Shown here: positions 13,017 to 62,780 of the stretch, in pieces | Layout: every line of letters starts with the position of its first letter | Numbering within the stretch: position 1 is the first letter of the stretch | Assembly: GCF_023195885.1 (NCBI RefSeq) | Contig: NZ_JALPKO010000003.1 | Span: forward strand, 248,001 to 312,000 | Source of the DNA: Methylonatrum kenyense | GTDB lineage: Bacteria; Pseudomonadota; Gammaproteobacteria; Nitrococcales; Aquisalimonadaceae | DNA length: 64,000 nucleotides | Direction of reading: 5' to 3' | The notes under the pieces: model-generated | Seen by the model: the letters and a program-made list of their open reading frames with translations, nothing else | What the model was told of the DNA's origin: nothing | Database searches by the model: none | Program-made: the position numbers and the translations under genes

Positions 13017-13061
13017 GGCAGGGCCTGCGCCCGTGCAATGTCCATTGAGGCCGGTGGGGAA

Positions 13062-13574
13062 TCAGTCAGCGTTTCCCTGGCCCAGTGCCTGCGGCGGCGG
13101 ATAGTCCCGCCGCAACAGTTCCAGCAGCTCCGGGGTGCGTGCGTTGGGCAGCGGGGCGGTGGCCTGCAGCTTTGCCAATACCGCCCGGGGCCAGGCGGTC
13201 TCCCCGCTTTTCAGGCTTTCCAGGCTGCCCCACCAGTGCACACCGAAACCTGGTGCACTGATTTCGTTGAACTGCTGCCGGAGGTCTTCATTCAATCCGG
13301 CAACCTCCATCGCCGTGATGACCGGCATGGCCGCTGTCTTGAAGCCGATGAAGTCGGCGCCGCGCAGCCCGGCCCGGCGCGGTTCCACGCGCAACAGAAA
13401 CTGGGCCAGCTCGGTGTGACGCACGAACCATTGCAGCGCACAGGCCGGGCCATCCGGCCAGGGCCCGACGGTCAGCAGACCGATTCGGTAATGCCGCGGG
13501 TCGCGGCCGGAGACAATACGGCAGGCCTCGTCCACCGCAGCGCCTTCCCACTCGAACATCGTGCCAATGGCCAT
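13062..13574 (-). CDS. Protein of unknown function (170 residues)
   Basis: From the ATG at 13574 (AAGG about five bases upstream) the protein reads MAIGTMFEWEGAAVDEACRIVSGRDPRHYR and has no signal peptide or membrane segment. Notable features are an Arg-rich middle, VHWWGSLESLKSGETAWPRAVLAKLQ near residues 120-146, and a C-terminus rich in Pro and Leu. No family was recognised. The reading frame continues upstream for about 100 more codons, but that part overlaps the divergent DUF1820 gene and has no good start, so it was left out. Confidence 0.7.
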   Translation of the reverse strand: MAIGTMFEWEGAAVDEACRIVSGRDPRHYRIGLLTVGPWPDGPACALQWFVRHTELAQFLLRVEPRRAGLRGADFIGFKTAAMPVITAMEVAGLNEDLRQQFNEISAPGFGVHWWGSLESLKSGETAWPRAVLAKLQATAPLPNARTPELLELLRRDYPPPQALGQGNAD

Positions 13575-14089: not shown

Positions 14090-14180
<91 letters not shown>

Positions 14181-17409: not shown

Positions 17410-17520
17410 GGCGGCGCCGCCGGTCCCCTCGCGACGATATGTTGTGAATCCGGTCAGGCCCGGAAGGGAGCAGCCGTAGCAGCAGATTCGGGCGCCGGGG
17501 TGTGGCTGGTGGTTGCCGCC
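17410..17520 (+). ncRNA. ffs: Signal recognition particle 4.5S RNA
   Basis: The conserved domain IV loop sequence GGTCAGGCCCGGAAGGGAGCAGC is present, with the usual pairing partner GCCGGGGTGTGGCTGG downstream. The ends GGCGGC (17410) and GCCGCC (17520) close the long helix. At about 111 bases it is the short bacterial SRP RNA that binds Ffh for co-translational membrane targeting. It is followed directly by dnaX, a common gammaproteobacterial arrangement. Confidence 0.95.
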
Positions 17521-40326: not shown

Positions 40327-40696
40327 TGGTGGAGGCGGCGGGAATCGAACCCGCGTCCGCAGATGATCCACCGTCGGATCTACATGCTTAGCTCACTATT
40401 GACATTCGCCGATCGCTACCCAGCGAGCAAGGGAACGCGATCAACTAGCCCGATTGGATTTAACAGGATCGTGTGCGGGCGGAACCCGATACTGCGAGCT
40501 TGTGCTCTACGACTGTCGACTCGGGACCACAAGCATTCACCGAGTAGACAGCTGGCGGGGTTTTTAGGCCGCCAGGGCGTAGTTTTCGTCGTTGGCAACT
40601 ATATTTAAGTTGGTCGCTTTTATTTTACGAGGAGGAAACGACATCCTCGGCATGCACCTCAGGTTTCACTATCCACGTCGAGACCATGTCGCCCCC
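40327..40696 (-). ncRNA. ssrA: Transfer-messenger RNA
   Basis: The RNA begins GGGGGCGACATGG (5' end at 40696) and ends CGCCTCCACCA (40327); these pair as the acceptor stem, with the conserved G-U at position 3, and the T-arm GGGTTCGATTCCC precedes the 3' end. The internal tag frame (40596 down to 40564) encodes ANDENYALAA then TAA. tmRNA rescues stalled ribosomes with SmpB and marks nascent chains for proteolysis. TATACT at 40710-40715 is a good -10. SmpB is encoded just upstream on the same strand. Confidence 0.98.
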
Positions 40697-44364: not shown

Positions 44365-44436
44365 CCGGCCCGGTCGCTGCGGCTACCGAACCGGCACCGC
44401 GCCTTGCCAGGTGACAAAAACCGGTCTCGGGCGCAG
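44365..44436 (+). repeat. Decayed copy of the type-B end module
   Basis: This stretch matches 62683-62754 closely over its length (CCGGCCCGGTCGCT...GGGCGCAG, few differences) but lacks the terminal inverted repeat that follows in the intact element. It fills most of the gap between fur and recN. Confidence 0.75.
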
Positions 44437-44450
44437 GCCGAGCCCGTGGC

Positions 44451-53798: not shown

Positions 53799-55964
53799 TC
53801 AGTTTCGCTTCGCGTCCTGACGGCGACGATGCAGGACCGGTTCGGTGTAGCCGCTGGGCTGCTCACGGCCCTTGAACACCAGCTCACAGGCGGCCTGGTA
53901 GGCGACGCCGTCGAATCCGGGGGCCATCGGCGTGTAGTTGGGGTCACCGGCGTTCTGCCGGTCCACCACCTCGGCCATCCGTTTCATGGTTTCCATCACC
54001 TGTTGTTCATCGGCGATGCCGTGATGCAGCCAGTTGGCGATGTGCTGGCTGGAGATGCGCAGCGTCGCACGGTCTTCCATCAGGCCGATGTCGTTGATGT
54101 CCGGCACCTTGGAACAACCCACACCCTGGTCGATCCAGCGCACCACGTAGCCGAGGATGCCCTGGGCATTGTTGTCGAGCTCCTGCTGGATCTCCTCGGC
54201 CGACCACTGCGGATCCGCCTCGACCGGGATGGTCAGGATGTCGTCCAGACTGGCCCGTCCGCGTTTTTTCAGCTCTTTCTGAACCGCCTTCACGTCCACC
54301 TGGTAATAGTGGGTGGCATGCAGCGTCGCGGCGGTGGGCGAGGGGACCCAGGCGGTGTTGGCGCCCGCCTTCGGATGGCCGAGCTTGGCTTCCATCATCT
54401 CTGCCATGCGGTCCGGCTTCGGCCACATGCCCTTGCCGATCTGCGCATGGCCCTGCAGGCCGCATTCCAGCCCGACGTCGACGTTCCAGTCTTCGTAGGC
54501 CTTGATCCAGGGTTCGCCTTTGATCGCATCCTTGCGCTTGAACGGTCCCAGTTCCATCGAGGTGTGGATTTCATCGCCGGTGCGGTCGAGGAAGCCGGTG
54601 TTGATGAAGATCACCCGTTCGCGGGCCGCACGCAGGCATTCCTTCAGGTTGACCGTGGTGCGGCGTTCCTCGTCCATGACCCCGATCTTCAGGGTGTTGC
54701 GTTCCACCCCCAGTGCATCCTCGACCCGGTTCAGGATTTCACAGCCGAAGGCCACTTCCTCCGGGCCGTGCATCTTCGGCTTGACGATGTACATGCTGCC
54801 GGTCCGGGAATTGCTGTGCTTGCCCAGTCCCTTCAGGTCATGCAGCGCGCAAAGGGTGGTCAGCATGCCATCGAGCATGCCTTCCGGAATCTCGTTGCCG
54901 GAGGAGGCGTCGAGCACCGCCGGCGTGGTCATCAGGTGGCCAACATTCCGCACCAGCATCAGGGCACGACCCGGCAGCGTCAGCTCGGCACCGTCCGGTG
55001 TGGTGTAGTGACGGTCCGCGTTCAGGCGGCGGGTGAAGGTCTTGCCACCCTTGCTCACCTGTTCCTCCAGATCGCCCTTCATCAGACCCAGCCAGTTGCG
55101 GTAGACGCCAACCTTGTCCTCGCCGTCGACCGCGGCCACCGAGTCCTCGCAGTCCATGATGGCGGTAACCGCCGATTCGATCAGCAGGTCCTTGACCCCG
55201 GCCGCATGCTTGCTGCCGATGGCATCGGCCTTGTCGATCTGGATTTCCAGGTGCAGCCCGTTGCAACGCAGCAGCACGGCATCCGGGGTGTCGGCGTCGC
55301 CGTTGTAACCGGCGAACTGTGCGGTATCCTTCAGCCCGGCCTCGCCGCTGTTCAGGCGGACCACCAGCTTGCCACCGGTCACCGAATAGCCGGTGGCATC
55401 GGCGTGACTGCCCAGTGTAAGCGGCGCGGCCTGATCGAGGATGGCCGCTGCGCGGCGGACCACCTCGGCGGCGCGCTTCTCGTTGAAGCCGTCGGTGATT
55501 GCCAGGTCGCCGTCCTGGGGAATGACATCGGTGCCGTAAAGCGCATCGTACAGGCTGCCCCAGCGGGCGTTTCCGGCGTTCAGTGCAAAGCGGGCATTAT
55601 TGGTCGGCACCACCAACTGCGGGCCGGCGATCTCGGCGATCTCGGGATCGACATTGCGGGTGCTGACAGAAAACGCATCACCTTCAGGCAGCAGGTAACC
55701 GATTTCCTTGAGGAAGTCCTTGTATGCTGCCGCGTCGTGCGGCTGGCCCCGGCGGGCCAGGTGCCAGTCGTCGATCTGCCGCTGCATCCGGTCGCGGATT
55801 TCCAGCAGTTCGCGATTCCGCGGTCCCAGGTCCCGCACCATGTCGCCCAGTGCCTGCCAGACATGATCCGGCTTGATGTCCAGGCCCGGAACGATCTCGT
55901 TGGCGACCAGATCATGCAGTTCCTTCGCAACCTGCAGACCACCTGTTTCAATGCGTTCGACCAT
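53799..55964 (-). CDS. glcB: Malate synthase G
   Basis: Condenses glyoxylate with acetyl-CoA to malate. The protein has 721 residues from ATG 55964 (GGAGG five bases upstream), matching E. coli GlcB (723), and rejecting an ATG eight codons earlier. It carries the family motifs [56 protein letters not shown] and [16 protein letters not shown]. Genetically separated from glcDEF by about 27 kb, although the products act in the same pathway. Confidence 0.97.
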
Positions 55965-56090
55965 CGGAACCTCCATGCTGAAGGGCACGTGACGGCACGT
56001 ACCACTTGAATGGGAGCGCAGCAGGCGACACGGCGCGCCTACTGATCTGGCCCGTCAGTCTAGCCGATGTTGCAGTGCGATGCACAAAAA
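55965..56090. promoter_or_regulatory. glcB upstream region
   Basis: On the minus strand TAGACT at 56058-56063 is a possible -10, giving a leader of about 85 bases. No riboswitch-like structure was seen. See the palindrome at 56091 and the TATAAT at 56105-56110. Confidence 0.3.
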
Positions 56091-56105
56091 TGGAAACGGT
56101 TTCCA
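56091..56105. promoter_or_regulatory. Perfect palindrome upstream of glcB, candidate operator
   Basis: TGGAAAC-G-GTTTCCA has 7-bp perfect arms and resembles LacI/GalR-type operators in its GAAAC/GTTTC arms, although the single-base centre differs from the usual CG. It lies 127 bases before the glcB ATG. On the minus strand it is immediately preceded by a perfect TATAAT (56105-56110). Confidence 0.45.
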
Positions 56106-56225
56106 TTATAAGGAAACGCTGACTTATTCCCGCGCCTGCGATCAAGACCGGTTTTGCTCATCTGGCAAGGCGCGGTGCCGGTTCCGTGGCTCCCCTGACC
56201 CAAGGCGACGTGCTTCTGCCCAGAG

Positions 56226-56267
56226 GCGTAGGGTGGGTCAAGCGAAGCGGACCCACGCGGTGTGATC
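56226..56267 (+). repeat. GTAGGGTG hairpin repeat, left copy
   Basis: GCGTAGGGTG then GGTCAAGCGAAGCGGACC then CACGCGGTGTGATC. Internal stem GTGGGTC/GACCCAC. It is paired with an inverted copy at 56382-56423. The GTAGGGTG...AAGCG repeat is widespread in bacterial intergenic regions. Confidence 0.7.
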
Positions 56268-56381
56268 GGGTAGGGGACACCAAAGATTTTCGCACAAGGA
56301 AGGTTCAGGACGAACCAGGGCGCGGTGAGTATTAGCGGTGGCGGTCGTGGTGAGCGAGAGCCCGTTGCCACGATCATGGCG

Positions 56382-56423
56382 GATCACACCGCGTGCATTC
56401 GCTGCGCTTAATACACCCTACGC
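56382..56423 (-). repeat. GTAGGGTG hairpin repeat, inverted right copy
   Basis: On the minus strand it reads GCGTAGGGTG, TATTAAGCGCAGCGAATG, CACGCGGTGTGATC. The stem is GTGTATT/AATGCAC. The outer 14-16 bases at each end are identical to the left copy while the stem bases differ in a compensating way. Confidence 0.7.
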
Positions 56424-56523
56424 GGCGTGTTCGGTGCGCCTTGCCTCGGAAAAAATGCGGACTCCAACGCAGGCGCGAGAATTAGTCAGTGTTTCCTGGC
56501 GCCGTATTCCAGGTTGTGGGCTT

Positions 56524-57021
56524 TTAGAGTGCCAGTCGGCGCAGTTCCGGATCGTCGATGGAGTGGTCCCAACGCCGGTCGAACTGTTGTCCTTCGGCGA
56601 TTGCTGCGCCCCGGTCACCACGGCCATCCACCGCAAAGCTGGCCTTGTTGCGATCCCAGCGCAGCAGGCCGTTGCGGTCCGCGATAACCAGATTGCCGAC
56701 ATCGCCCCTGTCTTCGGCGGCAAGCCGTCGGAAATCCATCGCCGTCGTCAGCCGGTGGCCCAGCCCGAGTATCTGATGACCGCCATGGCTCACGCCGGCG
56801 GCGTCCTCGACCAGGATGCGGATCCGCGCCTGGGGGCCGGCGCGGACCACGAGCTCACGAATCGCGTCGGCGACGTCGCTATTGTCGAACAGCGCACGAT
56901 CGAGATCCGGCGAGAGTATGTCCAGGTGGCGGCTGGCGCCTGCGATCAGCTCCAGCAGGGCGGTTCGGGTTTCGGTCAGCGAATCCAGCCGCGTCGGGCT
57001 TTCCGGTGGCTTGGCGGGCAT
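56524..57021 (-). CDS. DUF7931-like / PLD-fold-like small protein
   Basis: This 165-residue protein starts MPAKPPESPTRLDSLTETRTALLELIAGASRHLDILSPDLDRALFDN and has RRLAAEDRGDVGNLVIADRNGLLRWDRN. The SRHLDILSPDLD...NLVIADRNGLL spacing recalls a phospholipase D half-domain, but no HKD motif is present, so it is not predicted to be catalytic. GGAGAC lies eight bases before the ATG. It is the last gene in the purB-roxA-GNAT group. Family assignment is from memory of the pattern. Confidence 0.7.
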   Translation of the reverse strand: MPAKPPESPTRLDSLTETRTALLELIAGASRHLDILSPDLDRALFDNSDVADAIRELVVRAGPQARIRILVEDAAGVSHGGHQILGLGHRLTTAMDFRRLAAEDRGDVGNLVIADRNGLLRWDRNKASFAVDGRGDRGAAIAEGQQFDRRWDHSIDDPELRRLAL

Positions 57022-62440: not shown

Positions 62441-62780
62441 AAGGAAATACTGATTCATTCGCACGCCTGCGTTGGAGTCCGCAATTTCTCCGGGGCAAGG
62501 CGCGCTTAAGGAAACACTGATTTATTCGCACGCCTGCGTTGGCGTCCGCATTTTTCCGAGGCAAGGCGCGCTGCGCAGCGCCGCAGTCGTTCTGCGGTCA
62601 AGCAGCGCAACGCAGCAGTCGGGAAAAATGCGGCCCAACCCAAGGGGCCCGGCCGGTTTTGGCCCCTGGCGGCGTTGCGCCACCGGCCCGGTCGCTACCG
62701 CTACCGAACCGGCACCGCGCCTTGCCAGATGACCAAAACCGGTCTCGGGCGCAGACGCGGGAATGAATCAGTGTTTCCTT
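62441..62780. repeat. Composite inverted-repeat element, copy 2 (MITE-like)
   Basis: The ends AAGGAAATACTGATTCATTC (62441-62460) and GAATGAATCAGTGTTTCCTT (62761-62780) are inverted repeats at 19 of 20. The left side has two tandem type-A modules (start 62441 and 62508, period 67). The right side is a type-B module in reverse. A further inverted pair, CCGCATTTTTCC (62546-62557) with GGAAAAATGCGG (62622-62633), lies between. No open reading frame resembling a transposase is inside. Confidence 0.8.

Follow-up and report, generated by a model that had tools for sequence, protein, structure and literature searches.

In the analysed window, a stretch of 64,000 nucleotides from Methylonatrum kenyense, an element without a gene lies at 56112-56496, between the malate synthase G gene (glcB, 53802-55979, minus strand) and a DUF7931 gene (56527-57021, minus strand), 27 bp past the stop codon of the latter. 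The reading frames that overlap the element are mechanical only. A consensus promoter scan of the element detected no promoter-like site, and two weak terminator-like sites were found in it by a terminator scan. As a single strand, it is predicted to fold at -199.5 kcal/mol, against -153.3 kcal/mol (sd 5.95) in shuffled sequences (z -7.8). Searching Rfam gave 3 matches in the window, a tmRNA (40327-40696), a small SRP RNA (17418-17514) and a tRNA (14090-14177), and none in 56112-56496. About 5 bp from the element, upstream of glcB, there is a palindrome, ATGGAAACGGTTTCCAT (window 56090-56106, one central mismatch pair), which is conserved in the congener G002 and, with one change, in the congener G001. 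By its letters this palindrome looks like a repressor operator, and its halves GGAAAC and GTTTCC resemble the tip of the neighbouring element, perhaps by chance. The parts of the element are as follows.

56112-56496, no strand assigned: composite MITE, 385 bp, from a GGAAAC start to a GTTTCC end, with IS5-type terminal inverted repeats
56112-56190, plus strand: A end module, ~79-83 bp, common to the 270-bp MITE class
56191-56227, plus strand: short linker from the A module to the REPIN, kept in the long composite subtype and deleted in others
56228-56421, no strand assigned: REPIN, a head-head REP dimer, GTAG...CTAC, 194 bp, with free genomic copies bounded identically
56228-56258, plus strand: left REP, GTAGGGTGGGTCAAGCGAAGCGGACCCACGC (G000:C23:304228-304258)
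56391-56421, minus strand: right REP, GTAGGGTGTATTAAGCGCAGCGAATGCACGC on the minus strand (G000:C23:304391-304421)
56422-56496, minus strand: B end module, ~75 bp, with the tip GGAAACACTGACTAATTC

The outer arms (56111-56155 and 56453-56497) form a 45-nt inverted repeat with 80% identity (36/45), and the tips agree inversely at 17 of 19 positions, just as an earlier note on this DNA had it. The same note had described internal sequence that is unrelated to another copy in the window and contains a second repeat pair, and both points were borne out: the core is unrelated to the copy at 62510-62778, and an inner inverted pair (56226-56267 and 56382-56423) was identified over 42 nt with 83% identity. 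Its description of a second copy with the B end on the left and the A end on the right was correct in that the element is a further copy of the 62510-62778 repeat family, but the order of the ends merely reflects the opposite orientation. When the two copies were aligned, the end modules matched in inverted order in two minus-strand stretches, one of 79 bp (87% identity) and one of 76 bp (86%). Chance is ruled out as the source of this repeat structure. Being short, non-coding, bounded by a 45-nt TIR and a member of a multi-copy family, the element is a MITE, namely a gene-less one of IS5 type that belongs to a composite subfamily with REPINs inside.

Other members or pieces of the MITE family were detected in the window, where the tip motif matched 7 times (at most 3 mismatches) versus 0.75 expected.

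62510-62778, minus strand: second full MITE of the 269-271-bp class, without a REPIN and in opposite orientation
62443-62503, minus strand: B module fragment adjoining the 62510 copy
44382-44438, minus strand: A module fragment
13059-13076, minus strand: solitary tip, GGAAACGCTGACTGATTC, from the tip motif search

Within 62443-62778, the B module fragment stops at a TTAA where the full MITE begins; possibly, this is a MITE inserted in an older MITE, the other half of which is missing.

Throughout the 2.95-Mb genome (assembly G000, 29 contigs), the tip motif GGAAACNCTGANTNATTC was found 281 times with at most 2 mismatches (positions itemised for 100 of the 281), while the reversed-pattern control gave 0 matches. 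With the 62510 copy as query, the A and B ends recur as an inverted pair in at least 40 places at 82% identity or more (the query itself included; best 40 of 251 candidates, 30 fetched), and a parallel whole-genome copy search scored the best 40 of 236 first-look candidates. The earlier note would have dropped its reading had such an inverted pair been lacking everywhere else, and these places show that it is not. Nearly all fetched copies are 268-272 bp long, typically ~270 bp, and their mean pairwise identity is 92.5% over 28 of the 30 fetched loci, L025 and L028 being left out as their offsets differ at a contig end. Other MITEs are 50, 144, 165, 170, 191 or 406 bp long, with fixed tips and varied interiors. 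The 50 bp one (L187, G000:C25:196560-196609, flanks TTAG/CTAC) is a minimal form, barely more than two back-to-back tips. The tip motif was present in all 14 genomes searched (this one, 3 congeners and 10 of the same family), with counts of 281 (own), 367, 274 and 59 in the genus and 7 to 227 in other genera, against 0 to 2 in controls. No match was found in plasmids by the distant search with the 270-bp copy, or in phages by the distant search with the composite.

We examined target-site duplications in 51 distinct two-ended elements whose tips each have at most 3 mismatches and whose 4-bp flanks were available; elements with poorer tips were excluded from this set, yet are counted among the two-ended composites given below. 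The 4-bp flanks are identical in 21 of the 51 and agree at 3 of 4 bases in another 14, whereas in 2000 shuffled pairings the identical pairs averaged 9.2 and never exceeded 18. YTAR lies on the left of 35/51 and on the right of 37/51, with TTAA and CTAG dominant. The MITE family therefore has a 4-bp YTAR target duplication, but the 56112-56496 copy, flanked by ATAA and TGGC, has no recognisable one. REPs are absent from 39 of the 51, and among the REP-bearing two-ended elements identical flanks were seen in only 3 of 12, which fits an older wave of insertion: the composites show a mean pairwise identity of 80.3% (12 compared) versus 92.5% in the 270-bp class.

Since the tips are of IS5 type, a transposase partner was sought. 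No PF01609 transposase was found in the 29 contigs of the own genome, where a copy may have been collapsed in assembly, and present mobility of the MITE is thus doubtful; PF01609 is present in 9 of 13 relatives. An intact 1202-bp IS with YTAR flanks was identified in sister genera: G004 carries 4 copies and G011 a single one. At one end it reads GGAAACGCTGATTTATTC (G004) or GGAGACACTGATTTATTC (G011), the other end being the imperfect inverse, and its 327-aa protein is an NF033581 IS5-family transposase (339.5 bits, cut-off 140; PF01609 106.9 bits). For IS relatives in named genomes, the best 80 of 230 were kept, of which 29 loci, picked to span the list, were checked. The left tip agreed with the MITE tip at 14/18 or better in 18 of these 29, mostly with YTAR flanks; the more distant IS relatives among them, mainly from Pseudomonas, have different tips. 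The best named match to the IS (95%) was from an Ectothiorhodospiraceae MAG.

In the own genome, a protein search led to a decayed element on contig C24 (~201810-201950, L253). A stretch of 47 residues with a single stop is still 55% identical there, and the DNA of the element matches positions 1-56 of the IS (tip included; flank CTAA), 181-286 and 902-943. Judged by these matches, it is likely the fossil of the partner IS of the MITE. IS remnants were also detected in G005, G006 and G008. The strongest PF01609 match of the congener G001 (L059) was dropped for being without MITE-type ends, and at the single-end matches in other genera (L054-L056) no recognisable transposase was seen by eye at the end. 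By eye, the likeness of the MITE to the IS is limited to the tip, ~20 bp, and the MITE interior is not visibly IS-derived. With so little in common beyond the tip, the MITE is no plain internal deletion of the IS that was found. The IS5 family (NF033581, IS5_4) and its MITEs thus resemble our elements in the tip, the 4-bp YTAR duplication and the numerous short gene-less copies, but differ in that only the ~20-bp tips match and that the complete IS is missing from the own genome, which holds a decayed fossil only.

The core has a different origin. Its left inner repeat reads GTAGGGTGGGTC-AAGCGAAGCG-GACCCACGC and, on the opposite strand, the other reads GTAGGGTGTATT-AAGCGCAGCG-AATGCACGC; they are GTAG-tagged palindromes, inverted, with GTAG outermost. 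Such a pair with GTAG outside is called a head-head dimer in PMC3733652 and a REPIN in PMC3116915. The REP pattern has 96 matches in the own genome, 46 in G002 and 13 in G001; the remaining 11 genomes have none, and controls gave 0. An alignment combined nine free REPIN places with the 56112-56496 copy and two more composites. The free copies have unrelated flanks, and their homology begins at GTAG and reaches CTAC in 6 of 9; in the exceptions, the right end is diverged (C28:42311), only the left REP is present (C1:461432) or the copy is cut by a contig end (C9:24099). The REPIN is therefore an independent repeat with its own boundaries.

RAYT tyrosine transposases are thought to disperse REPINs. 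One RAYT gene was identified (G000:C29:126286-126810; NF047646 REP_Tyr_transpos, 188.3 bits), with the same REPs on either side, at 126184 and 127004, that is, ~70 bp upstream and ~190 bp downstream, so that an inverted GTAG-tagged pair, its independent dispersal and a cognate RAYT with the same REPs, all typical of REPINs, are found together here. RAYT-like genes are also present in relatives without this REP pattern; thus, in the family as a whole, the presence of the RAYT gene does not go along with that of the REP. A REP hot spot was noted at G000:C2:9995-56178 (L180, L185, L193-L199), a 46-kb tract holding 40 of the 96 REPs, none within a MITE, with many REP pairs that have GTAG inside and lie ~55 bp apart; the L180 part carries groEL and genes named by eye as nucleotide-sugar/polysaccharide-like. 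Our REPIN shares the inverted GTAG palindromes, the conserved spacer and the RAYT with the same REPs with the GTAG-type REPINs described in PMC3116915 and PMC3733652. Its spacer is ~130 bp between 31-bp REPs, compared to the usual 20-100 bp given in PMC3733652, and its population is partly carried in a MITE, unlike the systems those accounts describe.

Thirteen two-ended MITEs together contain 21 of the 96 REPs. Another 16 REPs are near a single MITE end, a class that includes probable chance neighbours (e.g. on C5 and C28), and the other 59 are near none, so the MITE is not the usual vehicle of the REPs. The aligned composites have the left and right MITE/REPIN junctions in common, although truncation or the loss of one REP is seen in several; at other loci, both the left junction AGAGGC|GTAG (with the linker) and the right junction CTAC|GC.TCGTG recur. 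One composite, L011, has an ortholog at the corresponding place in G002 (L051), where the flanks, ~1.45 kb each, are 86% and 81% identical. The fusion thus predates the split between the own genome and G002 and, since its junctions are the same in other composites, the composite moved as a unit. Where the earlier note had suspected a nest of insertions, it was right in kind, as a REPIN does lie within a MITE, but with junctions recurring in other composites the nest did not form at this locus. The site next to glcB, for which that note proposed looking for empty sites in sister strains, is indeed empty in both G002 and G001: flank homology ends within 3 bases of the left end of the element and resumes after 27 and 66 unrelated bases, respectively. 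Accordingly, the 56112-56496 copy was either inserted after the split or lost in the congeners. Among the stretches examined, none was a REPIN-free ancestor carrying the linker of the composite; a 191 bp candidate (L232) was rejected, being a composite with a collapsed REPIN.

It is highly probable that the element at 56112-56496 is an IS5-type MITE whose ancestor was entered by a REPIN, and that the composite was then carried by the MITE ends. The modules and their boundaries, the copy numbers, the duplications in the family, the matching IS of the relatives and its fossil, the RAYT gene between REPs of the same kind and the empty sites in congeners are documented directly; what we infer here is the enzyme that moved the element, the order of events, and the direction and mode of REPIN entry. 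The ends (GGAAACRCTGATTTATTC-like) would be the sites that a DDE transposase of the IS5 family recognises; acting in trans, this enzyme could have excised or copied the element and inserted it at a YTAR tetranucleotide. As a complete element, the IS would later have gone from the assembly, leaving the decayed fossil behind. The REPIN would have got into the interior of the ancestral MITE once, through either RAYT insertion or an exchange of cores, and the composite would thereafter have spread around the genome through its MITE ends.

The alternatives differ in what they take to be the mobile or selected unit. If a free MITE had settled here first and a REPIN had jumped into this very copy, then free REPINs with the same exact boundaries and a RAYT gene, both present in the genome, would be expected; but the recurrence of both junctions in composites elsewhere, one of which is orthologous in G002, makes the fusion older than this copy, and an independent nest, largely refuted already by the common junctions, is very improbable. 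Slightly less credible still is a RAYT-dispersed repeat that spans the entire unit, be it a large REPIN or a TIRtron, with the GGAAAC ends as mere flanking palindromes. RAYT genes can have long terminal inverted repeats at their flanks and REP dimers within palindromes are known (both from PMC3733652), and the strong single-strand fold would suit such a unit. Against it, REPs are absent from most two-ended MITEs, the family shows 4-bp YTAR duplications, and in relatives the same tips enclose a gene for an IS5-family transposase.

On the other hand, the element might now be maintained for the function of its RNA or DNA structure, at the 3′ end of the DUF7931 mRNA or as an upstream regulator of glcB, instead of being a parasite. 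Its position just past the DUF7931 stop and next to the conserved palindrome would suit such a role, as would the fold; yet the site is empty in two congeners, the composites are an old, diverged class and the scan detected no promoter-like site, which leaves this reading unlikely, if somewhat less so than the other two.

Compared with the IS5-type MITE carrying a REPIN that we favour, two described systems come close. In the GTAG-15 dimers of Anabaena variabilis (PMC3733652), REP dimers likewise lie regularly inside another palindromic repeat; as that account presents it, however, the outer palindrome was not found without REPs and no transposase is named for it, whereas here the MITE is mostly REP-free and an IS5-type partner was identified. 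The TIMEs, mosaic non-autonomous transposons of Pseudomonas described in PMC4133298, are similarly miniature, with fixed transposon ends and varied cores, but have Tn3-type ends, 5-6 bp duplications and larger gene-bearing cores, unlike the MITE here. In the open-access literature searched, we found no report of an IS5-type MITE with a REPIN core and none on MITE and IS5 in Ectothiorhodospiraceae. The components are ordinary and of known kinds; what is new is the fusion of the MITE and the REPIN, and the 56112-56496 element is a well-preserved case of one small genome parasite carried within another.

REPINs are usually treated as vertically persisting, RAYT-dependent populations, and MITEs as IS relics (in part after PMC3116915 and PMC8049555). 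As a speculation that we consider possible rather than probable, the composite may be a two-key mobile element, with DDE (IS5-type) sites at its ends and tyrosine RAYT sites in its core, dispersible by either enzyme; REPINs may then spread via the MITE ends at times when the RAYT is not active and, from within MITEs, give rise to new REPIN sites. One genus holds both repeats fused, with countable composites, one of which has its site in common with a congener; congeners also have empty sites, and the partner IS has left a fossil. The genus thereby offers a natural case for asking how a non-autonomous repeat travels on a second one and how MITEs outlive their IS.
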